DNA of 64,000 bases from Sabellastarte sp. h YS-2021 (lineage: Eukaryota; Annelida; Polychaeta; Sabellida; Sabellidae), in contig OZ024933.1 in the NCBI GenBank assembly GCA_964017235.1, forward strand, positions 5,955,962 to 6,019,961, given 5' to 3'. A program made the translations under genes and the position numbers. Below, in pieces: positions 1 to 64,000 of this stretch (its first letter is position 1; each line of letters opens with the position of its first letter). The notes beneath the pieces are model-generated. The model made no database searches and was not told the origin of the DNA. It saw nothing but the letters and a program-made list of their open reading frames with translations.

Positions 1-1557
1 CTATGGGTCTGAAACTTCACCATGTGAAAGCTCTCCCAAAAGTAGGTGAATGATTAATTTGACAAAAATTGGCTATCTGCAATACTTTATGAGATAATTC
101 GCATTTACTCATTTTGAGTAGACGAGTAATTAGCTATGGGTCTGAAACTTCACCAAGTGAAAGCTCTCCCAAAAGTAGGTGAATGAGTTATTTGAGAAAA
201 ATTGGCTATCTGCAATACTTTTAGAGATAATTCGCATTTACTCATTTTGAGTAGGTGAGTAATTAGCTATGGGTCTGAAACTTCACCAAGTGAAAGCTCT
301 CCCAAAAGTAGGTGAATGAGTTATTTGAGAAAAATTGGCTATCTGCAATACTTTTACAGATAATTCGCATTTACTCATTTTGAGTAGGTGAGTAATTAGC
401 TATGGGTCTGAAACTTCACAGAGTGAAAGCTCTCCCAAAAGTAGGTGAATGAGTTATTTGAGAAAAATTGGCTATCTGCAATACTTTTAGAGATAATTCG
501 CATTTACTCATTTTGAGTAGGTGAGTAATTAGCTATGGGTCTGAAACTTCACCAAGTGAAAGCTCTCCCAAAAGTAGGTGAATGATTAATTTGACAAAAA
601 TTGGCTATCTGCAATACTTTATGAGATAATTCGCATTTACTCATTTTGAGTAGGTGAGTAATTAGCTATGGGTCTGAAACTTCACCAAGTGAAAGCTCTC
701 CCAAAAGTAGGTGAATGAGTTATTTGAGAAAAATTGGCTATCTGCAATACTTTTAGAGATAATTCGCATTTACTCATTTTGAGTAGACGAGTAATTAGCT
801 ATGGGTCTGAAACTTCAAGTGAAAGCTCTCCCAAAAGTAGGTGAATGAGTTATTTGAGAAAAATTGGCTATCTGCAATACTTTTAGAGATAATTCGCATT
901 TACTCATTTTGAGTAGGTGAGTAATTAGCTATGGGTCTGAAACTTCACGAAGTGAAAGCTCTCCCAAAAGTAGGTGAATGAGTTATTTGAGAAAAATTGG
1001 CTATCTGCAATACTTTTACAGATAATTCGCATTTACTCATTTTGAGTAGGTGAGTAATTAGCTATGGGTCTGAAACTTCACAGAGTGAAAGCTCTCCCAA
1101 AAGTAGGTGAATGAGTTATTTGAGAAAAATTGGCTATCTGCAATACTTTTAGAGATAATTCGCATTTACTCATTTTGAGTAGGTGAGTAATTAGCTATGG
1201 GTCTGAAACTTCACCAAGTGAAAGCTCTCCCAAAAGTAGGTGAATGATTAATTTGACAAAAATTGGCTATCTGCAATACTTTATGAGATAATTCGCATTT
1301 ACTCATTTTGAGTAGGTGAGTAATTAGCTATGGGTCTGAAACTTCACCAAGTGAAAGCTCTCCCAAAAGTAGGTGAATGAGTTATTTGAGAAAAATTGGC
1401 TATCTGCAATACTTTTAGAGATAATTCGCATTTACTCATTTTGAGTAGGTGAGTAATTAGATATGGGTCTGAAACTTCACCAGGTGAAAGCTCTCCCACA
1501 AGTAGATGAATGAGTTATTTGATAAAAATTGGGTATCCGCAATACTTTTACAGATAA
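1..1557. repeat. 133-bp satellite, left block
   Basis: About 11.7 copies of a unit starting CTATGGGTCTGAAACTTCAC, with unit starts at 1, 134, 267, 400, 533, 666, 799, 929, 1062, 1195, 1328 and 1461. Diagnostic variants (CTTTTACAG, CACAGAGTG, GAATGATTAATTTG) recur five units apart, so there is a higher-order period near 662 bp. The array is cut by the family A element at 1558. Confidence 0.95.
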
Positions 1558-4500
1558 CTAGATTGTGCCAACTCGGCGCCAACATATCCCCAGACAGGTC
1601 ATCACTCACGCCACAGGTTTTGATCGGGAATTTTTTAAAACATAATTACCCATTATTATATGAACTTCAGCACATCAATCTACTCTGTTTATATCTCCCC
1701 AAGGAAGATGGTGTATCCCCAGACGCCGAATACATACCTCAAATTATATTTTCAATCTTCCTGCAATGATAACTCTAAACCTATTTTCAAAGTATTTAAA
1801 TGATTGATGATTGAATGTCCATTCTAAAATAATAATCCCAAAAGAGCATATCTGTTTCTATATTTGTTGACAAATAAAATATTATTTTTAACTCAACTCA
1901 TCATATTTTTCAATCTTCCTTCAAAGTATTTAAATGATTGATGATTCAATGTCCATTCTAAAATTCATAATCCCAAAAGCGCATATCTGTTTCTATATTT
2001 GTTCAGAAATAAAATATTATTTAAAAAAAAATTATTTATATTATTATTTTATTATATTATTTTTAGAATTTGCAAATTGTTTTCAGTTATTCATTTCCTC
2101 TATACCTATATATGTGGTCCATATATATGCAACCTAAATATGTGACACAATCTCAGTTCTGACTCCCCTTTGTGTTATATGTAATGAAGCCCACCACCTC
2201 CCACCCCCACCCCTCTCCCCTTCTCCACACCTCTCTCACTATTACACAAGATCTGCAACCCCATTGAGTTCTTTGTTTCTCATCTGATATCACTAAATAC
2301 CTTTGTTTATTTAGTGTCACTCAATATAGCTGGAGGTCCCAGAGGTGGGTGGGGGGAATCCGGGTGGGGGATGTGGGTTGAGCATAAATGGTAAACAAAC
2401 AATCTATATAAAAGGGGTACTCAAATACAAAAAGAATTGAGAATTTTAAGTATGTGATTATCAACTGAAATGAGTTCATAACTGTAGGAGCTGTGCCAAA
2501 ATTAACTGAGGCAAGTTGAATAAAACTGGGCTAGTTGAGGGTTAAAAATCCCCTAGTTTTACTACATAAGGATATAATTTCATTAATATTGGGACTTAAA
2601 GCTCACTTAAAGTGTCCATTTTGTCTACTTGAATATGTTTAACCAGTTTCATTTTAAAAAGTGAAAAACTCAGCAAGCAGAGGTATAACACACAAAAATA
2701 AGTTCTTAAAAGACTAAGATAGCCATAACATTATTAATATTCAAAATTTAAATAGACAGGCATTTCCTTTTAAAAATTCAAAGATTTCAGCTCTATAACC
2801 CACATAGTTTGACAGTTACTGGGCTTTAAAGTGGCATAATATCCATAAATTGGGTTTCTGTGGGCATTTTACAATTGTTAAAGAGACCTTAGCAATTAAA
2901 CTACAGATCTGAAACTTTTTGGGGGACATACATAACAAACAAAAATTATATATAATACAGTTTAAGACTTGTCACACTAAGCATTTCCAAATAACAGGGC
3001 AAAATACGGAAAAAATGTCAAAAAAGGCACTTGGGCGAGTGTCTATGGCCCTCATACACAGGTTAAATGTCTACTAAAAACCTTGATTTTCGGCATATGT
3101 AAAAAGGACATAATAATGCATTCCCAGATGGGATTTCAGCTCCATCAATCACATAGTTTAACAGTTACAGGGCTTAAAGGTGGTAAAAAGTCCAAATATT
3201 GGGTCATTGTGGGCCTTTTAGAGATCTCGATGTGGCTTTCAAATTAAAGCTTCAGACTTAAAATTTGTTACATACTAAGATTACACATAGAATATGTATC
3301 TAATAAAGTTTGAAACTTCTCAGACTTACCATTTCCAAGTTACAGAGCAAAATATGTGAAAAATGTCTTAAAAGGGTCACTCAGGTGGGTGTTTAAGGTC
3401 CTCATACACAGGTTAAATGTCTACTTGAAGCCTTGATTTTTGGCACATGTAAAAAAAACATAATAATGTATTCCCAGATGAGATTTCAGCTCTATCAGTC
3501 ACATAGTTTAACACCTTAAAATTGGCAAAAAGTCCAAATACTGGGTCTTTATGGGGCCTTCTAGAGACCTAAATGTGGCCTTCAAATTAAAGCTTCAGAC
3601 TTAAAATTTGTCACATACTAAGATTACACATAGAATATGCATCTAATACAGTTTGAAACTTCTTAGACTTACCATTTCCAAGTTACAGGGAAAAATATGT
3701 GAAAAATGTCTAAAAATGGTCACTCGGGTGGGGATTTATGGTCCTCATACACAGGTTAAATGTCTTCTTAAAGCCTTAATTTTTGGCACATATAAAAATA
3801 ACATACTAATATCTTCTCAGATAGGATTTGAGCTCTATCAGTCACATAGTTTGACAGTCACAGGGCTTAAAAGTAGCAAAAAGTCCAAATATTGGGTCTT
3901 TGGGAGCCTTTTAGAGACCTCAATTTGACCTTCAAAATTAAAGCTTCAGACTTAAAATCTGTTACATACTAAGATTACACACAGAATATATATCTAATAC
4001 AGTTTGAAACTTCTCAGACTTACCATTTCCAAGTTACAGGGAAAAAGATGTGAAAATGTCTTATAAGGGTCACTCGGGTGGGTGTTTATGGTCCTGATAC
4101 ACAGGTTAACTGTCTATTAAAGGCCTAAATGTTGGGGCACATATAAGAAAACACATAGATATATTCCCAGATGATATTTAACTTAGATGAGAGACATAGT
4201 TTGAAAGCTACAGTGCTTGAAAGTGGCAAAAAGTGCATAAATTGGGTCTCTGTGGGCACTTTTGAGACCTTAAGTCGACCCCTTTGGGTAAACCTACAGC
4301 CCTAAAATTTTCTACAGACAAGGATTACATATCAAAGTTATACCTAGCGCAGTTTGAGACTCATCAGAATTATCACTTCCAAATTATAGGGCAAAATATG
4401 TGTAAAGTATAGCAAAAAATCCCTAAGTGGGGGTATTTATGGGCCTCAAACACAATTTTCTCCTCAACTTAAAGTCATGATTTTCGGCACATGTACTAAG

Positions 4501-4806
4501 AACATATTAATGTGTTGTCAGGTAAAATTTCAGCCAGCTGAGCATCATAGTTTGTGACCTACAGGGCGCTAAGTGGCCAAAAGTGCAATTTCTGACCTTA
4601 AGGTGGCCATAAGTTCTTTTTTACTGGGAGTTTAAGGTCACCTTAAAATAGGGATCTTCCTTTGGGCACCCTTAACATGTGTACCAAGTTTGAAAAAAAA
4701 ATATTAATTTGTTTTTGAGTTATCGCGTCCACAAGGAAATTTCTACGGCGGCGGCGGCGCGACGGACCTGAATCCAATATATCCCCGACTTTCGTCTGGG
4801 GATATA
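1558..4806 (-). mobile_element. Helentron-like non-autonomous element, family A, copy 1
   Basis: It is read on the minus strand. The 5' end is TATATCCCCAGACGAAAG with an imperfect palindrome around TATCCCC...GGGGATA, then a GGTCCGTCGCGCCGCCGCC patch. Central units of about 310-350 bp carry the TCAGACTTACCATTTCC motif (as read on plus), repeated between about 2750 and 4400. The 3' side has GTCTGGGGATAT (the 12-bp inverted copy of the 5' end), a hairpin and CTAG. It sits in a satellite unit, so the target is readable as T|T on the element strand. No ORF of note. Confidence 0.85.
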
Positions 4807-5145
4807 ATTAGCATTTACTCATTTTGAGTAGGTAAATAATTAGCTATGGGTCTGAAACTTCACCATGTGAAAGCTCTCCCAAAAGTAGGTGAATGAGTTA
4901 TTTGAGAAAAATTGGCTATCTGCAATACTTTTAGAAATAATTCGCATTTACTCATTTTGAGTAGGTGAATAATTGGCTATGGGTCTGAAACTTCACCAAG
5001 TGAAAGCTCTTCCAAAAGTAGGTGAATGAGTTATTTGAGAAAAATTGGCCATCTGCAATACTTTTAGAGGTAATTCGCATTTACTCTTTTTGAGTAGGTG
5101 AGCAATTAGCTATGGGTATGAAACTTCACTAAGTGAAAGCTCTTT
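4807..5145. repeat. 133-bp satellite, right block
   Basis: About 2.5 more units resume after the family A element, beginning ATTAGCATTTACTCATTTTG. They end where AGTGAAAGCTCTTTGGGATAG departs from the consensus and the 167-bp array starts. Confidence 0.93.
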
Positions 5146-6437
5146 GGGATAGCTGCTCTGCAGAGATACCCTGAAGATAAAAAATTTCGTCGAAATCGCT
5201 CTATGTAGCACGGTTTTCGAAATATAAGCATTTTTGTGTTTTGCAATTTTTGCGCAAAAATTTGAAAATTCAAAATGGCCGCCATTTTTGGCAAGATAAA
5301 ATTTTTTTGAAAATTGGCATGGCTACTCTGCAGAGATACCCTGTGGATCAAAAATTTCGTCGAAATCGCTCTATCTAGCACGGTTTTCGAGATATAAGCA
5401 TTTTTGTGTTTTGCAATTTTGCGAAAAATTTGAAAATTCAAAATGGCCGCCATTTTTTGCGAGAAATTTTTTGTTTGAAAATTGGCATGGCTACTCTGCA
5501 GAGATACCCTGCGGGTCAAAAATTTCGTCGAAATCGCTCTATCTAGCAGGGTTTTTGAGATATAAGCATTTTTATGTCTTGCAATTTTTGCGAAAAATTC
5601 GAAAATTCAAAATGGCCGCCATTTTTGGCGAGAAATTTTTTGTTTGAAAATTGGCATGGCTACTCTGCAGAGATACCCTGCGGGTCAAAAATTTCGTCGA
5701 AATCGCTCTATCTAGCAGGGTTTTCGAGATATAAGCATTTTTATGTTTTGCAATTTTTGCGAAAAATTCGAAAATTCAAAATGGCCGCCATTTTTGGCGA
5801 GACAAAATTTTTTTTGAAAATTGGCATGGCTACTCTGCAGATATACCCTGTGGGTCAAAAATTTTGTCGAAATCGCTCTATCTAGCAGGGTTTTCGAGAT
5901 ATAACCATTTTTATGTTTTGCAATTTTTGCGAAAAATTCGAAAATTCAAAATGGCCGCCATTTTTGGCGAGATAAAAATTTTTTCAAAATTGGGATAACT
6001 ACTCTGCAGAGATACCCTGAGGGTCAAAAATTTCGTCGAAATCGCTCTATCTAGCACAGTTTTCGAGATATAAGCATTTTTGTGTTTTGCAATTTTTGCG
6101 AAAATTCCAAAAATTCAAAATGGCCGCCATTTTTGGCGAGACAAAAATTTTTTGAAAATTGGGAAAAGTATTCCGCAGAGATATCCTGCGGGTCAAAAAT
6201 TTTGTCGAAATTGCTCTATCTAGCACGGTTTTTGAGATATAAGCATTTTTGTGTTTTGCAATTTTTGCGAAAATTTCGAAAATTCAAAATGGCCGCCATT
6301 TTGGGCGAGACAAAAACTTTTTGAAAATTGGGAAAACTACTCCGCAGAGATACCCTGCGGGTCAAAAATTTGGTCAAAATCGCTCTATCTAGCACGGTTT
6401 TCGAGATATAAGCATTTTTGTGTTTTCCTTATTTGGA
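5146..6437. repeat. About 167-bp tandem array containing AATGGCCGCCATTTT
   Basis: About eight units each carry CTCTGCAGAGATACCCTG, AAATTTCGTCGAAATCGC, AGATATAAGCATTTTT and TTCAAAATGGCCGCCATT. ORF-like stretches here are by-products of the repeat. The unit is homologous to the array at 25550-26960. Confidence 0.95.
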
Positions 6438-6813
6438 AAATTCGTAATGATTAATTAATCATTAATTACTCGGCCATTTCTTGACCAATCAATGCCAAAA
6501 TCTAATGATTTCCAGATTTTAATAGAATGAATGTATTTGCCAAGTTTCAGGTGAATTGATAAAATTCCTTTCAAGTTATCATCCGGACAAGCTTCCCCAT
6601 CAAAAAAAGACATTTTTGGTCATGTGACCTCTCTGATTGGTTGAAATGTCACTGCAGCATATTCAAAAAAATTCCCCAGGGCTACTGCCTAAACCTGCCA
6701 AATTTGAAAAGAATCCGCCTAACGGTTACAGAGTTATAAGGAAAACAAAATGCGGAGCCGGCGGAGCCAGAAGCTCTCCCATACACAAACAAGCGTCCCT
6801 TGCGGGACGCTTA
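6438..6813 (-). mobile_element. 5' end region of a Helentron-like element, family D type
   Basis: Read on minus, it starts T|TAAGCGTCCC and has the palindrome AAGCGTCCC-GCAA-GGGACGCTT (6791-6812). A CCGCCGGCTCCGC patch and TTCAAATTTGGCAGG follow, and the 167-bp array comes next. The 3' end (TAAGCGTCCC copy and CTAG on plus) is not seen in 1-6437, so it is off the window or lost. The first base of the element lies about 50 bp from MDH2 exon 6861-6986. Confidence 0.65.
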
Positions 6814-9970: not shown

Positions 9971-12900
9971 CTAGATTGGGCCAACTCGGCGCCAACATAT
10001 CCCCAGACAGGTCATCACTCACGAAACAGGTTTTGATCGGGAATTTTTTAAAACATAATTACCCATTATTATATGAACTTCAGCACATCAATCTACTCTG
10101 TTTATATCTTCCCAAGGAAGATGGTGTATCCCCAGACGCCGAATACATAACTCAAATTATATTTTCAATCTTCCTGCAATGATAACTCTAAACCTATTTT
10201 CAAAGTATTTAAATGATTGATGATTGAATGTCCATTCTAAAATAATAATCCCAAAAGAGCATATCTGTTTCTATATTTGTTGACAAATAAAATATTATTT
10301 TTAACTCAACTCATCATACTTTTCAATCTTCCTTCAAAGTATTTAAATGATTGATGATTCAATGTCCATTCTAAAATTCATAATCCCAAAATCGCATATC
10401 TGTTTCTATATTTGTTCACAAATAAAATATTATTTAAAAAAAAATTATTTATATTATTATTTTATTATATTATTTTTAGAATTTGCAAATTGTTTTCAGT
10501 TATTCATTTCCTCTATACCTATATATGTGGTCCATATATATGCAACCTAAATATGTGACACAATCTCAGTTCTGACTCCCCTTTGTGTTATATGTAATGA
10601 AGCCCACCACCTCCCACCCCCACCCCTCTCCCCTTCTCCACACCTCTCTAACTATTACACAAGATCTGCAACCCCATTGAGTTCTTTGTTTCATATCTGA
10701 TATCATTAAATACCTTTGTTTATTTAGTGTCACTCAATATAGTTGGAGGTCCCAGAGGTGGGTGGGGGGAATCCGGGTGGGGGATGTGGGTTGGGACTAC
10801 AAAGAGATGGAGTGCTACAGCATAAATGGTAAACAAACAATCTATATAAAAGGGGTACTCAAATACAAAAAGAATTGAGAATTTTAAGTATGTGATTATC
10901 AACTGAAATGAGTTCATAACTGTAGGAGCTGTGCCAAAATTAACTGAGGCAAGTTGAATAAAACTGGGCTAGTTGAGGGTTAAAAATCCCCTAGTTTTAC
11001 TACATAAGGATATAATTTCATTAATATTGGGACTTCAAGCTCACTTAAAGTGTCCATTTTGTGTACTTGAATATGTTTAACCAGTTTCATTTTAAAAAGT
11101 TAAAAACTCAGCAAGCAGAGGTATAACACACAAAAATAAGTTCTTAAAAGACTAAGATAGCCATAACATTATTAATATTCAAAATTTAAATAGACAGGCA
11201 TTTCCTTTTAAAAATTCAAAGATTTCAGCTCTATAACCCACATAGTTTGACAGTTACTGGGCTTTAAAGTGGCATAATGTCCATAAATTGGGTTTCTGTG
11301 GGCATTTTACAATTGTTAAAGAGACCTTAGCAATTAAACTACAGATCTGAAACTTTTTGGGGGACATACATAACATAACAAACAAAAATTATATATAATA
11401 CAGTTTAAGACTTGTCACACTAAGCATTTCCAAATAACAGGGCAAAATACAGAAAAAATGTCAAAACAGGCACTTGGGCGAGTGTCTATGGCCCTCATAC
11501 ACAGGTTAAATGTCTACTAAAAACCTTGATTTTCGGCATATGTAAAAAGGACATAATAATGCATTCCCAGATGGGATTTCAGCTCCATCAATCACATAGT
11601 TTAACAGTCACAGGGCTTAAAGGTGGTAAAAAGTCCAAATATTGGGTCTCTGTGGGCCTTTTAGAGATCTCGGATGTGGCTCTCAAATTAAAGCTTCAGA
11701 CTTAAAATTTGTTACATACTAAGATTACACATAGAATATGTATCTAATAAAGTTTGAAACTTCTCAGACTTACCATTTCCAAGTTACAGAGCAAAATATG
11801 TGAAAAATGTCTTAAAAGGGTCACTCAGGTGGGTGTTTAAGGTCCTCATGCACAGGTTAAATGTCTACTTGAAGCCTTGATTTTTGGCACATGTAAAAAG
11901 AACATAATAATGTATTCCCAGATGAGATTTCAGCTCTATCAGTCACATAGTTTAACAGTCACAGGCCTTAAAATTGGCAAAAAGTCCAAATACTGGGTCT
12001 TTATGGGGCCTTCTAGAGACCTAAATGTGGCCTTCAAATTAAAGCTTCAGACCTATAATTTGTCACATACTAAGATTACACATAGAATATGCATCTAATA
12101 CAGTTTGAAACTTCTTAGACTTACCATTTCCAAGTTACAGGGAAAAATATGTAAAAAATGTCTAAAAATGGTCACTCGGGTGGGGATTTATGGTCCTCAT
12201 ACACAGGTTAAATGTCTTCTTAAAGCCTTAATTTTTGGCACATATAAAAATAACATACTAATATCTTCTCAGATAGGATTTGAGCTCTATCAGTCACATA
12301 GTTTGACAGTCACAGGGCTTAAAAGTAGCAAAAAGTCCAAATATTGGGTCTTTGGGAGCCTTTTAGAGACCTCAATTTGACCTTCAAAATTAAAGCTTCA
12401 GACTTAAAATCTGTTACATACTAAGATTACACACAGAATATATATCTAATACAGTTTGAAACTTGTCAGACTTACCATTTCCAAGTTACAGGGAAAAAGA
12501 TGTGAAAAATGTCTTATAAGGGTCACTCGGGTGGGTGTTTATGGTCCTGATACACAGGTTAACTGTCTATTAAAGGCCTAAATGTTGGGGCACATATAAG
12601 AAAACACAGATATATTCCCAGATGATATTTAACTTAGATGAGAGACATAGTTTGAAAGCTACAGTGCTTGAAAGTGGCAAAAAGTGCATAAATTGGGTCT
12701 CTGTGGGCACTTTTGAGACCTTAAGTCGACCCCTTTGGGTAAACCTACAGCCCCAAAATTTTCTACAGACAAGGATTACATATCAAAGTTATACCTAGCG
12801 CAGTTTGAGACTCATCAGAATTATCACTTCCAAATTATAGGGCAAAATATGTGAAAAGTATAGCAAAAAATCCCTAAGTGGGGGTATTTATGGGCCTCAA

Positions 12901-13254
12901 ACACAATTTTCTCCTCAACTTAAAGTCATGATTTTCGGCACATGTACTAAGAACATATTAATGTGTTGTCAGGTAAAATTTCAGCCAGCTGAGCATCATA
13001 GTTTGTGACCTACAGGGCTCTAAGTGGCCAAAAGTCCAATTTCTGACCTTAAGGTGGCCATAAGTTCTTTTTTACTGGGAGTTTAAGGTCACCTTAAAAT
13101 AGGGATCTTCCTTTGGGCACCCTTAACATGTGTACCAAGTTTGAAAAAAAAATATTAATTTGTTTTTGAGTTATCGCGTCCACAAGGAAATTTCTACGGC
13201 GGCGGCGCGACGGACCTGAATCCAATATATCCCCGACTTTCGTCTGGGGATATA
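9971..13254 (-). mobile_element. Helentron-like non-autonomous element, family A, copy 2
   Basis: It is near-identical to 1558-4806 from CTAG to GGGGATATA. Visible differences include a 26-bp segment near 10794 (GGGACTACAAAGAGATGGAG...) absent from copy 1. The flanks are unrelated, so this is transposition rather than segmental duplication. In this copy the 3' hairpin is good: TTGGGCC, loop AACTC, GGCGCCAA (9976-9995, one bulge), right next to CTAG. It lies in an MDH2 intron. Confidence 0.88.
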
Positions 13255-15240: not shown

Positions 15241-15865
15241 CTAGACCTACCCATCGAAGAGCCGATGCAAATTTGTATCCACCGGAAAGACAACTAACTA
15301 AAGTCAGTGAACCATCGTTTGACCTTGAAGGAGGGGCCAAAGGTCAAATCTAACATCACAAGATTCCAAGCCCAAGATTTCATATGAGTTGGTTTCGCAT
15401 TGTAAACCTCTAGGATCAATAATAAGCGAGTTATAAGCACTTTTAACTTTGGCTATCCTCATTTGACCTTCCCAAGGTCAAATCCGACCACACCAAAAGA
15501 TTTCCAGCAGATGATTTCCAATATGTTGGTTTACCATCCCAAACCTCTAGGACCAATAATAAGCGAGTTATAAGCACTTTTAGGTTTGGCTATCCTCGTT
15601 TGACCTTGAAGGAGGGATCCAAGGTCAAATCTGACCACATCAAAAGATTCCCAGCCCATGATTTCCTATAGGTTGGTTTACCATACCAAACCTCTAGTAC
15701 CAATAATAAGGGAGATATAAGAACTTTTCATGACTGACAAGGAAATGCCTATGGCGGCCATCTTGTTTTTCAAAATGAGGCCAAAAATATTCCCAGGCAA
15801 TATTTTATGGTAATGAATATACCGGGTATCTTGCAAATTGAGAAGGCTAGCTATAATATATATAT
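15241..15865 (-). mobile_element. Helentron-like element, family F, 5'-truncated copy
   Basis: The 3' end on minus is CCGGTGGATAC, hairpin CATCG-GCTCTT-CGATG, GGTAGGT, CTAG. Three to four central units carry AATAATAAGCGAGTTATAAG and CCAAGGTCAAATC. It loses similarity to 28679-28900 near 15863, before the 5' palindrome. Confidence 0.75.
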
Positions 15866-15948
15866 GCAGCAAAAGGTACCATTTTGAATCATTTTAGCAG
15901 GCCTAAGGTGACCTTGAAAACAATAGCCAGGGTCAACAAACTAGATGC

Positions 15949-16027
15949 TGGTACTCAACATCCAAAGCCATTTTCAATAGTTTTCATGGAATACAGTCAG
16001 CACTAAGTGTGAAAATATCTCCAAAAT
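15949..16027 (-). repeat. Fragment of a family C central repeat
   Basis: On minus it reads GGAGATATTTTCACACTTAG, then AACTATTGAAAATGGCTTTG and GAGTACCAGCATC, matching the 175-bp units at 49970-50400. It is broken at 16028 by a family B element. Confidence 0.7.
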
Positions 16028-17457
16028 TAGCATCAGAGATGCCCGTACCCCACAGCCTGGGGAAATAGTATTCAATAGTGTAGGGATTGGTGCTCGATCT
16101 TTCAATATCGATCGATCATCTCACAGAACTGCCGATATCGACACATACTACTGGCATTTCAATATCGAAACCACATATAAGAAACAGACAAAAAAAAAAA
16201 TAAACAGAGTCAATTTACTGTTTAATTGAAGATTTATTATATAAACGCCTTAAAAAAGCACATTTACAACCGAAATAAACTGGTTCAAGCCTGGCGCCAT
16301 CTTTGTTTACATTTTCAGTGACAACTTCCGGTTTCACGGAAGAGAAACAAAACCTGACAGCTAGTATACAGGAAAGCATGAAAACTCTCATTTGATTGGA
16401 TTTTTGTTCATTTTATTTTATTTTATATCGCAGAAATATATTTTTGGTGCAAAAATAATATGCTATGATAATTTTGTGATTTAATATATGCATGTTTTCA
16501 AAGAACCTGTATTATCGCCCACGGCTTACATTAACGGTCCCGATATTGAAATATCGATCGATCTGCCACCCTAAATTTTCATTTGATATCGATCCTCAAC
16601 ATGGCAGTCGATCCCTATACTAGTATTCAACACCATGAGATATAGAAGCAGTGAAACAGTACAAAGATCGGGATACTTTCAGAGCAGTGTCAGTTATATT
16701 AAGGTCTAAATGATGTTTAAGTAGACAAAATAACATCTAAGAGAAACAAAATGTATGCAAAGAAAACAATTTAATAGCAAGATGACAGCATTAATCAGTA
16801 AACTAAAACCTATGATGCACACCTACAACCCCAAAGCAATGTACCAACTATCAACTTCCTACACTTCACAGTTTCAGAGATATTGCCGGGACAAAACTTT
16901 AAAGGTCAAGATCACTAAGGCATGGTCAAATGTCAAATCAAGGTCACACAATGACACTGCACAGTGCACACCTACAACCCCCAACCAATGTGCCTACCAA
17001 GTATCAACTTCCTACACCTTACAGTTTCTGAGACATAGCCCAGACAAGATTTTATAGGTCAAGGTCATTACGGCAAGGTCAAAGGTGAAATCAAGGTCAC
17101 ACCATGATGTTACACTCCTACACCCCTTAACCAATGTCCCTGCAAAGTATCAGCTTCCTACACCTTATGGTTGCCAAGATATAGCCCGGACAAGTTTTTC
17201 AAACTCAAGGTCATTGTGGCAAGGTCTAATCAAGTTCTCACCATGACGTTGCACACCTACACCCCTTAACCAATGTCCCTACCCAGTATGAACTTCCTAC
17301 ACTTTATGGTTTCTGAGATACAGCCCGGACAAACTTTTCCCGCTGCCAGCCCAACCGCCCACCAGACCAACCACCAACCCGCCCAAACGCCCATCCGGAC
17401 CGGCGGACACCATGGGTAAAAACAATAGCCTGACAGCCCTTAAGGGCTGTGGGGTAA
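16028..17457 (-). mobile_element. Helentron-like element, family B, copy 1 (interrupted by a hAT MITE)
   Basis: The 5' end on minus is TTTTTACCCCACAGCCC with the perfect 18-bp palindrome ACAGCCCTTAAGGGCTGT (17433-17450), then a CGGACCGGCGG-type GC patch. Central units of about 150 bp (TATCAACTTCCTACAC, AAGGTCAAGGTCA as read on plus) follow. The 3' side has GGCTGTGGGGTA (inverted copy of the 5' end), then hairpin GCATC-TCT-GATGC and CTA. It is interrupted at 16076-16622. Confidence 0.82.
16076..16622. mobile_element. hAT-type MITE nested in family B element
   Basis: 547 bp with TIRs TAGTGTAGGGATTGG and ATCCCTATACTA. A perfect 8-bp duplication GTATTCAA lies at 16068-16075 and 16623-16630. Copy 2 of family B (58760-58810) shows the uninterrupted site, GGTGTTGAAAATATTTCCC. 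Confidence 0.9.
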
Positions 17458-24252: not shown

Positions 24253-24260
24253 GTTGACAG

Positions 24261-48060: not shown

Positions 48061-51000
48061 TGTATCCCCGGACGAAAGTCGGGGATACTTAGGATTCAGT
48101 ACGGTCACCCGCCCCCGCCGCAGAGATTTCCTTTTGGATGCGATAACTTAAAATATATTTTAGTTAGAACTTTCACATTTGGTATGTGGGTATATATGGG
48201 CAATGCCACTAACGCTATTGTTTTGTGACCTTGACCTTCAATCTCAAGGTCACTGGTGGCCTCTTAAAGGTCAGATTTTGGCCATTTTTTCACTTTTTGG
48301 CCCAGTTCTCCTATACAGAATGTCAGATCATCCTATGGCTGGTATATATAATACATATATATGTCCTCTGTAAGCAGGCAGAAATTTGACCTTGAAGCTC
48401 TTCATTGAAGGTCATCCACTGACCGCCAAAGTACCTGACCGAGGGTCATTTTTGGCGATATTTTCACACTTAATCAGGGTTCGAAACTAGCGCCGGTCCG
48501 TCAGTCCGAGACCGACAAAAATGTTACTGGGTCGAAAAGATTTAAAACCTTCCAGTCCGTGTGTCCTACTAATATTTCTTTTCATCTACGATTCCGCCAT
48601 TTTGTAAACAAAGCACCCTCACGGTATTTCTATTAAGCTATCTGATTAGTTTAAAAGTGAGGCGTATCGCGGCGGCCAATAAAAAGCTTACATGCATCTA
48701 GAGCAAGAGGGATCGAAGGCATTTCTTTTCTGTCTTTTCATTGGTTGTACCGCGCATTGAAGATCTTTCTATTCAGCTATCTGATTGGTTTAAAAATCAA
48801 TGTGTGTGCTTGCGTGGGATCAAAAGGTCGAGAGGTGAAGAGTACACGAGGTCACGCATGCGCATTCGTGTTATACAAAGGACTCAAGATCCATCTTAAA
48901 CGACCAGTGTTACAATGTACCCTTACAAATCTTATTCGAAACGTTACATATCGAAAGAAAAGGTGATCTTTGGAAGGACACAATTGGAAACAATGTCTCC
49001 GAACGATGACAAATACCTTGTGCAGTGGGAGACACGTTCTACTAACTCTCGGAAATACTTGAATTTTTAACCCAGGAAACCTCCCGAAAAATATTACCTC
49101 TGAAATTCGAAAATATTCACAGGGATTGTAGCAAAAACATTGTAACTAATTTGTCTTTCGAACATTATAGATATCATATTTATAGTGTAAATAAAATATT
49201 TGTTTAGAAACTATCTACATATACAAAATGTCATTGAAAATTGAGTAGTGCTTCTGTTCATTTTTGATACCTTAAAAATCTTCCAAAAATAAGAGGAAAA
49301 ATGTGAGGTATATTTTTTGACTGTTTTCTTTACTCTTGATGTACACAGGCATACATCAGATATTTTATGAATGTACAACCATGTACAATGTACTATAATT
49401 TACTGTCAAAGTGATAAATAAATTTAAATCTAATTTATTGCTTTTGAGTAACTGGGTGTATCTAAACACTGTTTATTGAGGAAAATATCGAAGAATATTA
49501 CTTGTATCCCATTTTCGATGCCCCATATAAGAGCTATTTATTTCACTTTTAAAAAATTGTAATTCCTTTTTTAAATTTTTGTCCCCTTTCTACGTAAATA
49601 GATCATGCATGTACATATCTTTCATCCACGATTTTCTGTATTTTTATTTACATCCCCCTCCCCCAACATTGATTCTCCCCATATTCATTCCACTAACATC
49701 TACCCATAAATAAAAAATAATAAAATTATTGAAACTTCAATATGTACACAACTATTTTCAAGTAATTAACACAATAGCTGGTGTTCTCAACAATTTTCCA
49801 AATTTATTATATAATGCTTTACTAATTTAAATATCGGACTGATAAACTTTCTGACGGACCAGCAACTTTGCCAAGTTGTCAGTCCTGTGGTCCTGAAACT
49901 ATCTTGGCTTAGTTTCGAACCCTGCACTTAATGCTGACTATATTGCATGGAAACTATTGAAAATCACTTTGGAGGTTGAGTACATGATGGACTTCTACCA
50001 TCCAGGCTTACTGGTTACAGATCTTCATTTAAGGTCATCTACTGACCGCCAAAGTACCTGACCAAGGGTCATTTTTGGCAAATTTGGAGATATTTTCACA
50101 CTTAATGCTAACTACATTGCATGGAAACTATTGAAAATGGCTTAGGAGGTTGAGTACATGATGGAGTACCAGCATCCAGGCTTACCGGTTACAGATCTTC
50201 ATTTAAGGTCATCCACTGACCTCCAAAGTACTGATCAAGGGTCATTTTTGGCATATTTGGAGATATTTTCACACTTAATGCTGACTACATTGCATGGAAA
50301 CTATTGAAAATGGCTTTGGAGGTTGAGTACATGATGGAGTACCAGCATCCAGGCTTACCGGTTACAGATCTTCATTTAAGGTCATCCACTGACCTCCAAA
50401 GTACCTGAGCGAGGGTCATTTTTGGCCCTCTATTTGTTTGTTTGTTTGTGAACAAGATAACTCAAAAACTGACAGATGGATTTTGATAAAATTTTCAGGA
50501 TATGTCCAAAATGGTAAAAGGAAGATATGATTAAATTTTGGGAGTGATCTGGATCTTCTGGATCCATGAAATTTAATTTTTAAAGACAGATAACTCAAAA
50601 ACTTATGGGTGCATTTTGATGAAATTTTCAGGAAATATCCTTAATGGGACGAGGAACAAGAGATTAGATTTTGGGAGTGATCTGGATCACTGTCTGGATC
50701 ATCCGGATCCAGGCTGCCAGATGTGTTTGTGTACAATATAGCTCACAAACTTATTGATGGATTTTGATAAAGTTTTCAGGATATGTCTGAAAAGGTAAAA
50801 GGATGAAATGGTTCAACTTTGGAAGTGATCTGGATCACTATATGGATCTTCTGGATCCATGAAATGTAATTTTTAAAGACAGATACCTCAAAAAGTTATG
50901 GATGGATTGTGATGACATTTTCAGCAAATGACCTAAATGGTACAAGGAACAAGTGATTACATTTTTGGACGATCTGGATCATCTGGATCCAGGCTGCAAC

Positions 51001-51587
51001 ATAATTATAGGATGAATTTTGATGATATTTTTAGGATATGTTACAAATGGTAAAAGGAAGAAGTGGTAAAAGGAAGAAATGGTTCAATTTTGCGAGTGAT
51101 CTGGACCACTATCTGGATCTTCTGGATCCATGAAATATAATTTTTAAAGACAAATAGCTCAAAAAGTCATGGGTGGATTTTGATGAAATTTTCAGGAAAT
51201 GTCCTAAATGGGACAAGGATTAGATTTTGGGAGTGATCTGGATCATTTGGATCCAGGCTGCTAGATGTGTTTGTGTACAAGATAAATCAAAAACTTATGG
51301 ACGGATTTTCATGAAATTTTTAGAATATGTCTGAAAAGGTAAAAGGATGAAATGATTGAATTTTGGAGGTGATCCGGATCACTATATGGATCTTCTGGAT
51401 CCATGAAATGTAATTTTTAAAGACAGATATAAGTGAAAGAACTAGTGATTAGTTTTTGGGAGTAATCTGGTACTATGGAGAATCCTGACCTGGTGCGCCA
51501 GGAAACAGGCTCAAGACCGACATATTCACGCCTTAACTATGTCCTGTCCGGGGATACACAGTGAGTGCGTCGAGACGCAATCTCTAG
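48061..51587 (+). mobile_element. Helentron-like non-autonomous element, family C, in RFC5 intron 1
   Basis: The 5' end is TGTATCCCCGGACGAAAG with palindrome arms GTATCCCC (48062-48069) and GGGGATAC (48081-48088). A CCCGCCCCCGCCGCAGAG patch follows, then CACATTTGGTATGTGG. Two central repeat types come next: about 175-bp units with AAGGTCATCCACTGACC, and longer units with GATCTGGATCATCTGGATCC. The 3' side has TGTCCGGGGATAC (51545-51557, inverse of the 5' end), hairpin GCGTC-GA-GACGC (51567-51578), AATCT and CTAG (51584-51587), then TT. The element is complete but contains a nested hAT. Confidence 0.9.
48475..49924. mobile_element. hAT-type element nested in the family C element
   Basis: 1450 bp with 15-bp TIRs CAGGGTTCGAAACTA and TAGTTTCGAACCCTG. 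CACTTAAT is duplicated perfectly (48467-48474 and 49925-49932). It splits one central repeat unit, whose intact neighbours read TTTTCACACTTAATGCTGAC. No transposase frame was found. Confidence 0.92.
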
Positions 51588-52790: not shown

Positions 52791-52855
52791 GGTTGAAAAG
52801 TACCGACCTAAGACCTTAGATGATCTGATATCACACAAAGACATTATAAGCACAA
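52791..52855 (+). CDS. RFC5: Replication factor C subunit 5, exon 2
   Basis: After ...TTGTGTTTAG, this 65-bp exon gives the last base of Trp, 21 codons (VEKYRPKTLDDLISHKDIIS plus T) and one base of the next Ile; the donor is GTAAGT. VEKYRP is the RFC box II signature. Intron 1 before it holds the TA-flanked TIR element 46168-47009, the 3.5-kb family C Helentron-like element 48061-51587 and a hAT nested inside that element. Confidence 0.95.
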
Positions 52856-56680: not shown

Positions 56681-57401
56681 TGTTGTTTACCAAGTAGTAC
56701 GAATCTGGGATACCCAAACCATTTTATTCTAGCATGCATGGAAAAGTGCAAAAAACTGAGACAAAGTGTACAATTTCGTCAGATTTAGGCTTTATTTTGG
56801 ATATTTGAAGTGTAAGTAAACGGTTTTACTTAAAATGGAGATATTGATGTATATCTTTAGACATGGATATCGGCAAACCCTGTGCCAAAACAATAAATAT
56901 TGTCAATATTGATAAACATTCTAACATGACACGGATGTGTCATCGATTCTGATTGGCTAAACGACAAAATACTTCACCGGTAAAATACAGCGTAACCCTG
57001 TGACTTCCTATTATCACTCATTATGGCTGTCGTAACAATGAACGTTTTACAGGCAATAAACCATGGTAAAATTCTGCGTATACCGTGGTTTGGTCAGGGG
57101 TTATTCCTATAATGTAACCACTACTGAAGCGTCTATATTGTGACATTGTTGGTAACAATGTTGTTTTGGTATTGAGATAATTAAGCGTCCCTGAAAAGGG
57201 CGCTTCTTTGGTTTCGCGTCAGTTTCCTCGCCGCCGCCGCATTATGGCCTCCCTTGAATATCTCCCTTATTATTGCAAGGTATTGGGAAACCTTATGTGA
57301 AGAGATTAGATAGCTGGTCAGATTTACCCCTGGGTCAAAACTGGGGTGATAAAATAGCCGATTTTGTGTTTTGGCCGTGTTTTGTCCAGTTTTGGCCTTT
57401 T

Positions 57402-58838
57402 TACCCCACAGCCCTTAAGGGCTGTCGGGATATTGTTTCACCCATGGTGTCCGGATGAGCGGGCGGGCATCCTGTTGGGTGGGCGGGCGGCTGGAAAAAG
57501 TTTGTCCGGGCTGTATCTCAGAAACCGTAAGGTGTAGGAAGTTGATACTTGGTAGGGACATTGGTTAGGGGGTGTAGTTGTGCAACGTCATGGTCTGACC
57601 TTGATTTGACCTTTGACCTTGCCGTAGTGACCTTGAGTTTGAAAAATCTTGTCCGGGCTATATCTCGGAAACCGTAAGGTGTAGGAAGTTGATACTTGGT
57701 AGGGACATTGGTTAGGGGGTGTAGTTGTGCAATGTCATGGTGTGACCTTGATTTGACCTTTGACTTTTCCGTAGTGACCTTGACCTATAAAATCTTGTCC
57801 GGGCTATATCTCGGAAACTGTAAGGTGTAGGAAGTTGATACTTGGTAGGGATATTGGTTAGGGGGTGTAGGGGTGCAGCGTCATGGAATGACCTTGATTT
57901 GACCTTTGACCTTGCTGTAGTGACCTTGACCTATAAAATCTTGTCCGGGCTATATCTCAGAAACTGTAAGATGTAGGAAGTTGATATTTGGTAGGGACAT
58001 TGGTTAGGGGGTGTAGTTGTGCAACGTCATGGTCTGACCTTGATTTGACCTTTGACCTTGCCATAGTGACCTTGACCGATAAAATCTTGTCCAGGCTATA
58101 TCTCGGAAACTGTAAGGTGTAGGAAGTTGATATTTGGCAGGGATATTGGTTAGGGGGTGTAGTTGTGCAACGTCATGGTCTGATCAGGATTTGACCTTTG
58201 ACCTATAAAATCTTGTCCAGGCTATATCTCAGAAACCGTAAGGTGTAGGAAGTTGATACTTAGTAGAGACATTGGTTAGGGGGTGTAGTTGTGTAACGCC
58301 GTGGTGTGACCTTGATTTGACCTTGCCGTAGTGACCTTGACCTTTAAAATGTTGTGACACCTTTGGGTCTGTCTTTTGATGCAGATTAAGCACTGTTAAT
58401 ACATATTAGAATTTATTAAGAATTTTACTTTCATAACTTCCCATTGTAAGAGATAGAATTTCATCAAGTGAGCCACAGATTTTGCTCCAACACCACACAT
58501 AAGCGTTCATTAAATGTATTACCACTTCTGTATGCATGGTAATATTCAAAACATCTAAACCATAATTCGGCCATGCAGATGTAGATAAAGAATGTTGAAT
58601 TTTAGTTTACTGATTAATGCTGTCATCTTGTTATTGAATTGACTTGTTTTAATACTTATCTTTTCATGCATTATCTTTATTTTAAACATTATTTTCTGCA
58701 TTCAAACTTTTTTTGGAACTTTATATAACTGACAGTGCTCTGAAAGTATCCTGAACTTTGTACTGGTACAGTGCTTCTGTATCTCATGGTGTTGAAAATA
58801 TTTCCCTAGGCTGTGGGGTACGGGCATCTCTGATGCTA
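57402..58838 (+). mobile_element. Helentron-like element, family B, copy 2, nested in family D
   Basis: The 5' end is TACCCCACAGCCC with the perfect palindrome ACAGCCCTTAAGGGCTGT (57408-57425), then a GCGGGCGGGC GC patch. About six units of about 150 bp carry TATATCTCGGAAACCGTAAG and TTGATACTTGGTAGGGACAT. The 3' side has GGCTGTGGGGTA (58809-58820), hairpin GCATC-TCT-GATGC (58824-58836) and CTA before a T run. Neighbouring family D units give the empty site CCTTTTATCTCC. Confidence 0.88.
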
Positions 58839-58864
58839 TTTTATCTCCTTTATTCTTGCTTTTA

Positions 58865-59582
58865 GAGTTTAGAATGTATTAAGAGGTATTGGGAAACCTT
58901 ATGTGAAGAGTCTAGATAGCTGGTCAGATTTACCCCCCCCCCCCCCCCCCCCCCACCCCATGCGTTAAACTGGGGGTCATAAAATAGCCGATTTGGTGTT
59001 TCTACCTCTTATCTCCTTTATTCTTGCTTTTAGAGTTTTAGAATGTATTAAGAGGTATTGGAAACCTTATGTGATGAGTCTAGATAGCTGGTCAGAATTA
59101 CCCCCGGATCACCCCTTATGGGTCAAACTGGGGTCATAAAATAGCCGATTTTGTGTTTTTGCCTTTTATCTCCTTTGTTCTTGCATTTAGAGCTTTAGAG
59201 TGTATTAAGAGGTGGTGGGAAACCTTACGTGAAGAGCCTAGATAGCCGGTCACATTTACCCCCTGCCACCCCCCACCCCCCTTATGGATCAAACTGGGGT
59301 CATGAAATAGCCAATTTTGTGTTTTTGCCTTATATCTAGTTTATTCTTGCTTTCAGAGATTTACAATGTATTAAGAGGTATTGGGAAACCTTATGTGATG
59401 AGTAGATAGCTGGTCAGATTTGTGTTTTTGCCTTACATCTACTTTAGTCTTGCTTCTACAGCTTTAGAATGTATTAAGAGGTATTGGGAAACCTTATGTG
59501 AAGAATCTAGATAGCTGGTCAGATTTACCCCCTGACCCTCCCTTATGGGTCAAACTGGGGTCATAAAATAGCCGATTTTCAA
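58865..59582. repeat. Family D central tandem array
   Basis: Four to five units of about 155 bp carry TAGAATGTATTAAGAGGTAT, GGTCAGATTTACCCC and AAACTGGGGTCATAAAATAG. One unit holds a poly-C run at about 58937-58954. Confidence 0.9.
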
Positions 59583-60083
59583 TTACATCAAAATAGAAAT
59601 GAGCATTATTCATAAGATATAAATAGGCTTGTGGGAACATTGACCTTTTATTTACTCATTGGGATAGATGTGGTCACAGCATTGTGTCATAAACTTCTTG
59701 CCTTTCCAAAGGCTCAAATTTTACTATGCCTTTTTCTAAAATGTAAATAGGTATATGGCATTTATAAAGCACTGTTACTCTTTAATTAAGTAGTTTTATG
59801 GTGTAATTTTCAACCTATTATAAGTATTGATGCTTTATGCTTTCTGAGCCAGAGCATTTATTCAATTAACTTTTCACAATTTATAACCATAGAAAACAAA
59901 AAAAGCTTAAATTTTTCTTTATGTTAATGCATGAACTTCCACACTGTCTGCTTAACTTTCACTTCTTCTCTCAGCACTGCATGCTTTTATTTTCAAAAAC
60001 CCTTTTCTACTGTATATTTTATTGCAGTGAACCTTTTTGGGACGCTTAGTTTTTGTTAGCAAAAACATTCTTCTAGTTTTAAG

Positions 60084-60473: not shown

Positions 60474-61389
60474 ATTTTAAGCGTCCGTGGTTTGCTAGCT
60501 TTTGATCTGGTTGTTAACATACACAGTCCTCGTGGTTTGTTATTACTTTTACATAAATAAATAGACTCATTGCCTCCTACCAAGGAGATATTATTTTCAT
60601 GACAGTTTGTCTGTTAGCTTGTTTGTTAACAGGATTACTACGGGTTAGATCTTCCTGAAAGTAAAATTTAAAAATATTAAGAAGATGGGTCTTGGTCCAA
60701 CTTAGATCCCATTAGATTTTGAAAGTAATCTGGATCACAGTCCGGATTCAAAAAGAGTAATCTATATTTTCCCATTTATTGATTATTATTACGTAGTGTT
60801 GTTAATGGTTTACCGGTATGCGGAATATCATTTCGTTTTGGTAGAAAAAACGAAGTCCGCAAAGAATATTTGGGAACTGGTTTTTGAAGACGTTATTATT
60901 TTAGGCTTTCTAATGGCTGATACTTCATCAAAACGACAAAAAATATACATATTTTGTAAAATATGTCACATTTTTATGTCAGCTGACTTGTCAGTCAGCT
61001 GACATTATGTCATCACTCTGCGGCGTGGGCGTCCGCGTCCGCGTGAACAACTTCTTCTCCAAAACTACAAGGCCTAGAGACATGCTGTTTTTTTTAAAAG
61101 ATATCTTATCTGTCGAGGATGAAAAATTGTTCAAGGCATGCAAATCTGTCTGTTCGTCTGTTTGCTAGAGACATTACAAGGGGGGTACCCCCACCAAAAG
61201 TGTGAAAATTTCAACTTTTTATCACAATTTTCTCAGTGACTATTGCAGGGATTTCTCTCATATCTTGCATATATGTACTAGGCCAGAGGTAGATTCTCTT
61301 GTGTGAGTATGAGACCTGGATCTGTCTTACTTTTTTTTTAATAAATTTTTTTAATAATTTTTAATGCATTAAAATTCATGAAATCATGC

Positions 61390-62970
61390 ACTAAATCACT
61401 TATAACTTCAAAAGTGTTGCATTTACAGCATTTTGTGAAAATATGTTGTTCAGCTACTTTTTTCATAGCTACAATATGGTGAGTAAGTTGGGTGTCTGTC
61501 TCAATAGCTAAGTGAGTAATAGCTACTTTTGGGCTTTTCAGTAACTTCCATTATGAGTAAAATCACTTGTAACTTAAAAACTATTGCATTTAGAGAATTT
61601 CGTATAAATATGTTATTCAGCCACTTTTGGGCCAGCTATAACATAGTGAAATTTCAGACCTGTAGCTCATGGCATAGCCGAGTAATAGCTACTTTTAGGT
61701 TATCACTGTTGAGTAAATCGCTTATAACTTGAAAACTATTGCATTTAGAGAATTTCGTATAACTATGTTATTCAGCTACTTTTGGGTCAGCTATAACATA
61801 GTAAAATTTCAGACCTGTAGCTCATGGCATAGCTGAATAATAGCTACTTTTAGGTTATCACTGTTGAGTAAATCACTTATAACTTGAAAAGTGTTGCATT
61901 TAGAGCATTTTGTTAAAATATGTTGTTCAGCTACTTTTTTCATAGCTACAATATGGTGAGTAAGTTGGGTGTCTGTCTCAATAGCTAAGTGAGTAATAGC
62001 TACTTTTGGGCTTTTCAGTAACTTCCATCATGAGTAAAATCTCTTGTAACTTAAAAACTATTGCATTTAGAGAATTTCGTATAAATATGTTATTCAGCTA
62101 CTTTTGGGCCAGCTATAACATAGTAAAATTTCAGACCTGTAGCTCATGGCATAGCTGAGTAATAGCTACTTTTAGGTTATCACTGTTGAGTAAATCACTT
62201 ATAACTTGAAAACTATTGCATTTAGAGTATTTTGTTTCATATGTTATTCACCTATTTTGGGGTCAGCTATAACATAGTGAAGTTTCAGACCTGTGGCTCA
62301 TTTCATAGCTGAGTAATAGCTACTTTGAAGTTCTCACTGTTGAGTAAATCAGTTATAATTGGAAAACTATTGCATTTACAGAAATTTGTGCAAATATGTT
62401 ATTCAGCTACTTTTGGGTCAGCTATAACATAGTGAAATTATAGACCTATAGCTCATGGCACAACTGAGCAATAGCTATTCTCAGGTACTGACTGTTGAGT
62501 AAATCAGCTATAACTTGAAAAAGATTGTATTTGGAGTATTTTGTTAAAATATATTGTTCACCTACTTTTGGGTCAGCTATAACATAGTGAAATTACAGAC
62601 CTATAGCTCATGGCATAGTGGAGCAATAGCTATTTTCAGGTTCTCACTATTGAGTAAATCAGTTGTAGCTTGAAAACTATTGCATTTACAGTAGTTTGCT
62701 TAAATATGTTGTTCACCTACTTTTGGGTTAGCTATAACATAGTAAAATTTCAGACATGTAGCTCATTGCATAGATGAGTAATAGTTCCTTTGAGGTTCTC
62801 ACTGTTGAGTAAATCAGTTGTAACTTGAAAACTATTACATTTAGAGTAATTTGTTAAATATGTTATTCACAGAATTTTTGGTCAGCTATAACATAGTGAA
62901 ATTGCAGACCTCTATGTCATGGCATAGCTGAGCAATAGCTACTTTCAGGTTCTCACTGTTGAGTAAATCA
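61390..62970. repeat. Family G central tandem array, homologous to the 133-bp satellite
   Basis: About ten units carry GAGTAATAGCTACTTTTAGG, AACTTGAAAACTATTGCATT, TTATTCAGCTACTTTTGGG and TTTCAGACCTGTAGCTCATG. The reverse complement of the 1-1557 satellite has TTTCAGACCCATAGCT, GAGTAAAT, TATTGCA and TCATTCACCTACTTTTGGG in the same order. Confidence 0.88.
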
Positions 62971-62971
62971 T

Positions 62972-63720
62972 TGTATCCACTGGATAGCCGCAGTGTGTAG
63001 AGAGAGATTTCACCATTACTGCTTTGATGAAAAAAAATATTATAGCTAGCTTTCTTAAGTTTGCAGTATATATTAATAACCATAAAATGTTGTCTGGGAA
63101 TATTTTTGGCCTCATTTTGAGAAACAAGATGGCCGCCACAGGTGTTTTTTGTCAGTCATGAAAAGTGCTTATATCTCCCTTATTATTGATCCTAGAGGTT
63201 TGGGATGATAAACCAACCTGTAGGAAATCATGTGGTGGGAATCTTTTGGTGTGGTCAGATTTGACCTTCAATGACCCTTCAAGGTCAAACAAGGATAGCC
63301 AAACTTAAAAGTGCTTATAACTCGCTTATTATTGGTCCCAGAGGTTTGGGATGGTAAAAAGACAGGAAATCATGGGCTGTGAATCTGTTGATATGGTCCG
63401 ATTTGACCTTGGAACCCTCCTTCAAGGTCAAATGAGGATAGCGAAAATTGAAAGTGCCTACAACTCGCTTATTATTGGTGACAGAGATTTGGGATGGCAT
63501 AGGAAATCATTGGCTCGGAATCTTTTGGTGTGGTCAGATTTGACCTTTGGACCCCTCCTTCAAGGTCAAATGAGGACAGCCAAGCTTAAAAGTGCTTATA
63601 ACTCATTTATAATTGGTCCTAGAGGTTTGGAATGGTAAACCATAGGAAATCATGGGCTGGGAATGTATTTGTGTTGTTAGATTGGACCTTGGACCCCTTC
63701 TTCAAGGTCGAACGAGGATA
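62972..63720 (+). mobile_element. Helentron-like element, family F, damaged copy inside family G
   Basis: It starts TTGTATCCACTGGATAGCC with the second palindrome arm deleted. AAGATGGCCGCCACAGG and about three 147-bp units (CTCGCTTATTATTGGTCC, TTTGACCTT) follow. It stops at GAACGAGGATA without reaching hairpin or CTAG; family G sequence (TTGCATTTGTAGTATTTC) resumes directly. Confidence 0.78.
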
Positions 63721-63835
63721 TTGCATTTGTAGTATTTCTTTAAATATGTTTTAACCTATTTTTTACACTTAAACAATTACCTTGTTATTTTCCTTCATAA
63801 TACCATTTACAGGGCACAACTTTTTTATCCTTTTT

Positions 63836-64000
63836 ATGTCAGCTGACTTGTCAGTCAGCTGGCATTATGTCGTCACTCTGCGGCGTGGGCGTACGCGTAC
63901 GCGTCCGCGTGAACAACTTCTCCTCCAAAACTACAAGGCCTAGAGACGTGCTGTTTTTTTTAAAAGATACCTTATCTATCGAGGATGAAAAATTGTTCAA
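63836..64000 (+). mobile_element. Helentron-like element, family G, copy 2 (5' end, runs off the window)
   Basis: It repeats the palindrome arms of copy 1 (one change, CTGGCAT) and the GC patch, expanded to GTACGCGTACGCGTCCGCG. The next 100 bp match 61055-61140 almost exactly. Confidence 0.85.

Follow-up and report, generated by a model that had tools for sequence, protein, structure and literature searches.

Probable non-autonomous Helentrons with six types of 5' end in a 64-kb window of a Sabellastarte genome

Helentron-associated interspersed elements (HINEs), the non-autonomous Helentrons, have been described in mites, oysters and flies. In the mite Metaseiulus occidentalis, seven HINE families with 21 subfamilies are reported from one genome (PMC4067079), and in the oyster Crassostrea gigas eleven Cg_HINE elements have been defined (PMC7492417), to which 10 autonomous elements could not be related (PMC7492417). 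The general plan of these elements, the number of coexisting families, and their satellite arrays have already been published (PMC4067079, PMC7492417, PMC8268682, PMC11136912). Here, we describe a stretch of 64,000 nucleotides from the annelid Sabellastarte sp. h YS-2021 (GCA_964017235.1, contig OZ024933.1, positions 5,955,962 to 6,019,961), called the window in what follows, in which 13 copies or remnants were mapped, their 5' palindromes being of six types; all results come from this single window and the copies that it contains. We are highly confident that these elements are HINEs. An earlier note on this DNA had drawn attention to many families with unlike ends lying together, which is indeed observed here, but was already on record for the mite and the oyster (PMC4067079, PMC7492417). 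The find is largely ordinary, its kind being already described in oysters, mites, and flies; what it adds is a set of well-bounded HINE families, with two insertions of recent date and one cleanly preserved empty site, in a group of elements whose autonomous partners are unassigned in oysters.

A close likeness is found with the HINEs of M. occidentalis, which share palindromic subterminal inverted repeats (subTIRs) of 12-15 bp, a 3' palindrome, tandem repeats in some copies, an unmodified T-rich target in which both sides carry TT or more, and the coexistence of unlike families, seven of them in that genome (PMC4067079). They differ, as compared by description, in that satellite-like arrays are found throughout the elements described here, as is a GC-rich patch following the 5' palindrome. 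The eleven Cg_HINE elements likewise have element-specific ends, a left inverted repeat complementary to the subTIR, a microsatellite in the left flank, central repeats mostly of 140-180 bp in a fixed orientation (in two consecutive arrays in some elements), and TT targets (PMC7492417). Contrary to the oyster, where a repeat cluster is tied to one flank pair, one type of 169-bp array (C1 and D1, 79%) is found here behind unlike 5' ends, again as compared by description (PMC7492417). DINE-1 from Drosophila shares the subTIR and inverted repeat at the 5' end, the 3' stem-loop and the TT target, but there the subTIRs do not form palindromes of their own, and a conserved core block is part of the element (PMC4067079). 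Central repeats of about 160 bp are also a feature of the Pearl elements and the BIV160/Cg170 satellites of bivalves (PMC5139131).

The elements were delimited by motif search, self-comparison of the window, and reading of the sequence, and are named by end type and copy number (A1-A3, B1-B2, C1-C2, D1, E1-E3, and F1-F2; Table 1). One further related array, of 133-bp units, has its element ends outside the window. Element-derived DNA amounts to about 23.5 kb of the 64 kb (36.7%), an upper figure in which the repeat interrupting B2 is counted.

The boundaries can be read from A1 and A2, which are separated by 33 substitutions over 3243 aligned bases (1.0%) and by 7 gap events, and lie in unrelated flanks. 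Their common sequence spans from TAATT/ATATCCCC to CTAG/TT, the slashes marking the element ends. Because A1 interrupts a tandem array, its empty site is available within the window: 13 spanning matches from the host 133-bp array read AA-TTATC, against AATT and TTATC on the two sides of the filled site. Two T are the only difference, so that at this one clean empty site there is no duplication beyond TT, and AATT belongs to the A1 target because the empty copies contain it. All 12 of the 5' flanks end in TT (chance about 6e-12 by base composition, with the ends treated as independent), and seven of nine 3' flanks start with TT, the exceptions being B2 and D1. Both the B1/B2 and the F1/F2 pairs are alike in the first 14 of 14 bases inside the element but unlike outside it, where 8 of 20 bases agree in the former and 11 of 20, with a shared T run, in the latter; the 5' start of the B family inside a T run is our own choice. 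Two findings that the earlier note had named as fatal to its proposal did not turn up in the window: the copies do end at the palindrome and the CTAG, and the elements with terminal inverted repeats (TIRs) that are present represent separate insertions.

The 5' ends start with GTAT, ATAT, TACC, AAGC or ATGT, and the six palindromes quoted in the earlier note were all recovered. Palindromes with a stem of at least 10 bp (up to one mismatch, a loop of up to 9, and a stem GC of at least 0.4) occur nine times in the window and 0-2 times per sequence in 10 Markov-resampled controls; five of the nine are element 5' ends. The other four are not taken as HINE ends, as those at 21125, 21289, and 25158 have neither a GC patch nor a matching 3' end on reading, and the one at 48225 lies inside A3. 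Folding of a single 5' sequence from each end type showed five of the six to be more stable than all 200 shuffles, and the stability of D1 was reached by 3 of 200. The inverted copy of the 5' end that was claimed for the 3' side exists in each of the eight two-ended copies (A1, A2, A3, B1, B2, C2, D1, and E1): the first 12 bp match at 12/12 in A1, A2, A3, B1, and B2, at 11/12 in E1, and at 10/12 in C2 and D1 (p 0.0002-0.0012 by base shuffling), and this copy stops 18-34 bases short of the 3' terminus. At subTIR positions 1 and 9, where A1/A2 differ from A3, the 5' and 3' ends have changed in concert, which agrees with one protein reading both ends. The GC-rich patch is also real, with a 30-bp window of GC 0.70-0.80 beginning at +30 to +88 in all 11 of the 5' ends tested (E2 was left out, this part being missing in it), while along the window a value of 0.66 is reached by 88 of 1727 stretches. 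Central tandem arrays are present as described. The layout as a whole is present. C1, E2, F1, and F2 are without a 3' end (F2 being cut by the window edge), and E3 has lost its 5' end. A strict de novo scan for the whole plan recovered two of the eight complete copies (A3, and E1, which was reported twice) together with one false match in an E array, compared to two matches in total over 20 Markov-resampled sequences.

The 3' termini are CTAG in A1, A2, A3, C2, E1, and E3, CTA in B1 and B2, and CTA or CTAT in D1, whose terminus is uncertain by a few bases (25413 was used in the empty-site, subTIR, and boundary tests). The hairpin that would precede them holds for five of the six copy groups having a 3' end, with stems of 5-7 in A3, B1, B2, C2, D1, and E1 (p 0.010-0.049), but not for A1/A2. 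By folding against 200 shuffles, the stem-loop is clear in E1 (z = -3.7), good in B and C2 (z = -2.8 and -2.7), and modest in A3 and D1 (z = -1.3 and -1.7). A second subTIR is present in A1 (1558-1725) and A2 (9971-10138), 129 bases inside the true 3' end; in A2 it is followed by a perfect 7-bp stem, which 16 of 200 shuffles fold equally well, and then by GTAG. Read-through with capture of a new terminus is a step proposed for Helitrons, and this inner 3'-like end would most simply be an older terminus, read through when the new one was acquired.

Beyond these ends, boundaries, T-T targets and the intact empty site, we infer an enzyme, a single-strand intermediate, and an autonomous partner of its own for each end type. 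In such a mechanism, a Rep/helicase encoded elsewhere in the genome would move the rolling-circle element by reading its two subterminal repeats, of which the 5' one is a palindrome; one strand would be replicated toward the 3' end until the stem-loop and CTA(G) bring this to a halt, and the product would be joined into a T-T site. The protein and the single-stranded intermediate are taken from what is known of the family (PMC4067079).

Several results weigh against the assignment to HINEs. The 3' hairpin of A1/A2 has a stem of only 3 bp and is at chance level (p = 0.86; z = -0.2, with 78 of 200 shuffles as good), despite the recent movement of these copies. Junction-spanning matches were obtained within the window for three of the nine HINE copies tested (A1, B1, and E2) and for none of the other six, and two of those three junctions are altered: 26 additional bases lie next to the 5' junction of B1, and in E2 a deletion took the 3' end plus 16 target bases. 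Ungapped comparison of the ends is poor, with 17 of the first 30 bases alike in C1/C2 and 12 of the last 30 in E1/E3, the latter difference consisting of small indels. No match to Rep, a Pif1-type helicase, or the Helentron endonuclease was obtained in the 135 open reading frames (ORFs) of at least 62 aa scanned against Pfam (E <= 0.01; ORFs lying mostly in arrays and the smaller ones of the retroelement region being left out), nor in the retroelement ORF. Among the 23 Pfam families matched in those 135 ORFs there is neither a Helitron nor a Pif1 model; a single RFC-like exon accounts for the AAA-type matches, and one ORF has a weak match to an RPA-interacting family (E = 0.0093). Separately, Rfam and tRNA scans of the window were empty, and pattern scans of viral contigs and prokaryote genomes returned no external relatives, to which the make-up of these collections gives little weight.

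Even so, the HINE assignment fits the inverted subTIRs, the T-T insertion, the absence of duplication beyond TT, the shared boundaries, and the 3' stem-loops of five of the six groups, with the A1/A2 hairpin as its misfit. The canonical Helitron combination of 5' TC, 3' CTRR, and A/T insertion is not what these elements display, their targets being T-T, although CTAG taken by itself agrees with CTRR. Membership in Helitron2, the sister type, or in another Helitron-like group outside the Helentrons proper is very unlikely. Ends alone may fail to separate these types. Published elements of this layout are filed as HINEs (PMC4067079, PMC7492417), and in the mite HINEs, too, insertion is T-T and the subTIRs are palindromic.

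The strong 5' palindromes could also belong to miniature inverted-repeat transposable elements (MITEs) of cut-and-paste or foldback transposons mimicking Helentron ends, and the related bivalve Pearl elements were in fact first named MITEs and later re-categorised (PMC7492417). This explanation is already disfavoured and we consider it extremely improbable: instead of the symmetrical TIRs and fixed-length duplication of TIR (DDE) MITEs, the ends are asymmetric, with the inverted copy subterminal at the 3' side and followed in most copies by a stem-loop and CTA(G), and there is no duplication beyond TT at the one clean empty site, against 8 bp or 7/8 in the TIR-type elements of the same window. 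Highly improbable, too, is that the arrays are ordinary satellites to which the end structures adjoin by chance or by later insertion. The 133-bp and F arrays without complete ends in the window would suit such a view, as would the different arrays behind the related ends of A1 and A3; however, within a family (A1/A2, B1/B2, and E1/E2/E3) the array, its orientation, and the ends around it agree from copy to copy, and the core motif treated below lies on the element strand at 47 of its 48 positions inside elements, albeit as a motif trained on these arrays.

How many families there are is a matter of how they are counted, since counting end types and applying the rule of 11 bp of identical subTIR (PMC4067079) give different totals. 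Six end types were mapped, whereas about eight families would result from the 11-bp rule, by which A1/A2 separate from A3 and C1 from C2; the seven families of the earlier note are neither established nor excluded by these counts. A1 and A3 differ at 2 of the first 12 bases, and C1 and C2 have 9 identical first bases (11 of 14), so that neither pair forms a single family under that rule; C1 and C2 have AAGCGTCCC in common, with no match between their 5' spacers. The ends were also said to be unrelated, which holds for five lineages but not for A and E: GTATCCCCGGAC in A3 and GTATCCACCGGAT in E1 are a single substitution and a single inserted base apart, and their first 120-135 bp align at 64% (E = 1.5e-5), against 68% for A1 and A3.

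Arrays and ends are, to judge by their alignments, combined freely. Behind unlike ends and spacers, the arrays of C1 and D1 match at 79% over 1.25 kb and run in the same direction, and the reverse case is given by A1 and A3. The units of C2 and E are 63-65% alike over about 120 bases, and those of F and the 133-bp array 60-65%. The occurrence of the same array type in different Helitron elements has already been noted in a review (PMC12628747). Open frames in the 169-bp arrays were rejected as coding, as the frame shifts at each 169-bp unit.

A loose two-part motif (approximately CTTATAACTCGAAAAC, then 11-25 bases, then approximately TTTTCACCAAATTTGG) recurs in a fixed orientation in several of the arrays and spacers. 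It came from a de novo search of 14 modules of our choosing, in which the real set and 60 Markov-resampled control sets were searched equally deep. Its scores were 37.8-39.5 at width 12 (controls 27.3 +/- 2.2, maximum 34.8 of the 60), 56.3-57.4 at width 16 (40.8 +/- 2.6, maximum 46.3), and 70.4-71.6 at width 20 (52.4 +/- 2.7, maximum 58.8), and when strands were assigned at random, the real score was reached in 1 of 48 trials. A first leave-one-out analysis gave values below 0.05 in 3 of 14 modules on the element strand (A_sp, C1_sp, and CD_169) and also in 3 of 14 on the opposite strand (A3_160, D_sp, and X_133), the search having landed on the second half of the motif in 3 of 14. With start patterns from the full set, which makes the test partly circular, Fisher p was 4e-11 over 12 groups (opposite strand 0.70), with C2_166, E_147, F_sp, and X_133 not significant. 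The strict version, with start patterns from the training set, gave a Fisher p of 1.7e-4 (opposite strand 0.22), and 3 of 12 groups were below 0.05 alone (A_sp, C1_sp, and F_155), C1_sp on the opposite strand too. Scanning the window with the motif, trained on these same arrays, returned 48 positions inside elements and 9 outside, against 3-5 per resampled window, and none in B2 and C2. The core motif is thus supported over the whole set, and not in each family.

The monomers of BIV160 and Cg170 have two conserved motifs in common despite their divergence (PMC5139131), and the two parts of the core may correspond to them, a likening of descriptions and not of letters. Literature on satellites and mollusc terms returned no paper with TATAACTC, and it is to that extent only that the motif appears unpublished. 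A bolder proposal, which we regard as unlikely, is that the central repeats would be no passive satellites, and that the core, which recurs in families whose ends have no relation to each other, would be a working cis element, a predicted binding site for a host or transposition protein, kept while the ends and the rest of the array are swapped between families. Related arrays behind unlike ends, together with a recurring core motif, bear on how satellite DNA is picked up and spread. As a separate observation, TGACCTT, which we take to be a nuclear-receptor-like half site, occurs 77 times in the window against 11 expected, mainly in A, A3, B, and E, and none of 100 shuffles has as many, tandem copying inflating this count.

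Table 1. Positions of the elements, arrays and array pieces in the window.
Feature	Description	Positions	Strand	Evidence
A1	Family A copy 1, both ends, 3248 bp, inside the 133-bp tandem array	1558..4805	-	Alignment with A2; 13 spanning empty-site matches; subTIR 12/12
A2	Family A copy 2, both ends, 3283 bp, flanks unrelated to those of A1	9971..13253	-	Alignment with A1
A3	Family A-related, both ends, hAT-like insert at 48475-49924	48062..51587	+	De novo scan, ends, subTIR
B1	Family B copy 1, nested in C2	57402..58838	+	Ends, subTIR; spanning matches in C2 array
B2	Family B copy 2, interrupted near the 3' end by another repeat	16028..17456	-	Ends, subTIR; boundaries common with B1
C1	Family C copy 1: 5' end at 6812, spacer, 169-bp array, without 3' end	5144..6812	-	Arrays, ends
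C2	Family C copy 2, both ends, B1 inside	57183..60076	+	Ends, subTIR
D1	Family D, ends unlike those of C1, 169-bp array related to the C1 array	25411..27397	-	Ends, array alignment, subTIR
E1	Family E copy 1, both ends, 1135 bp	27767..28901	-	De novo scan, ends, subTIR
E2	Family E copy 2, 3'-truncated, inside F array	62973..63720	+	Ends, spanning matches
E3	Family E copy 3, 5'-truncated, 3' CTAG present	15241..15873	-	Motif search, ends
F1	Family F copy 1: 5' end and 155-bp array, resuming at 63721 after E2; 3' end not found	60976..62972	+	Arrays, motif search, reading
F2	Family F copy 2: 5' end, cut by window edge	63836..64000	+	Motif search, alignment
133-bp array	1-1557 and 4806-5143, split by A1; 60-65% like F array	1..5143	- (strand inferred from F similarity)	Self-comparison
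A3-type piece	Piece of tandem unit adjoining B2	15951..16025	-	92% to 50256-50330
C2-type piece	Piece of unit, flank of E1	28902..28989	-	83.5% to 59085-59175

The elements are nested: the 133-bp array is interrupted by A1, C2 by B1, the F array by E2, and A3 by a hAT-like element; D1 probably sits inside a hAT-type MITE, as suggested by a weak alignment and a 7/8 duplication. Two F 5' ends lie head to tail, 2.86 kb apart (60976-64000), with no 3' end between them on reading, an arrangement as in tandem rolling-circle products or nested insertion.

The remaining contents of the window are eukaryotic, namely exon-like RFC5 stretches, a long terminal repeat (LTR) retroelement, and hAT-like elements. 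The LTR retroelement (33544-39175) has LTRs identical at 1010 of 1013 positions and an ORF of 1063 aa with SCAN, zinc-knuckle, H2C2, and integrase models, and no reverse transcriptase model at E <= 0.01. The TIR elements are presumably hAT-like, a name we gave them from their ends and duplication length. They comprise the insert in A3 (48475-49924), with an 8-bp duplication CACTTAAT and an empty site; the element at 25203-27603, with a duplication of 7/8 and split by D1; and the elements at 60082-60476 and 23861-24255, which are 92% copies of each other. At 52612-53475 on the plus strand lie stretches resembling exons of an RFC5-like gene (replication factor C subunit 5), and at 14318-14557 on the minus strand one resembling an exon of a lactate/malate dehydrogenase family gene.

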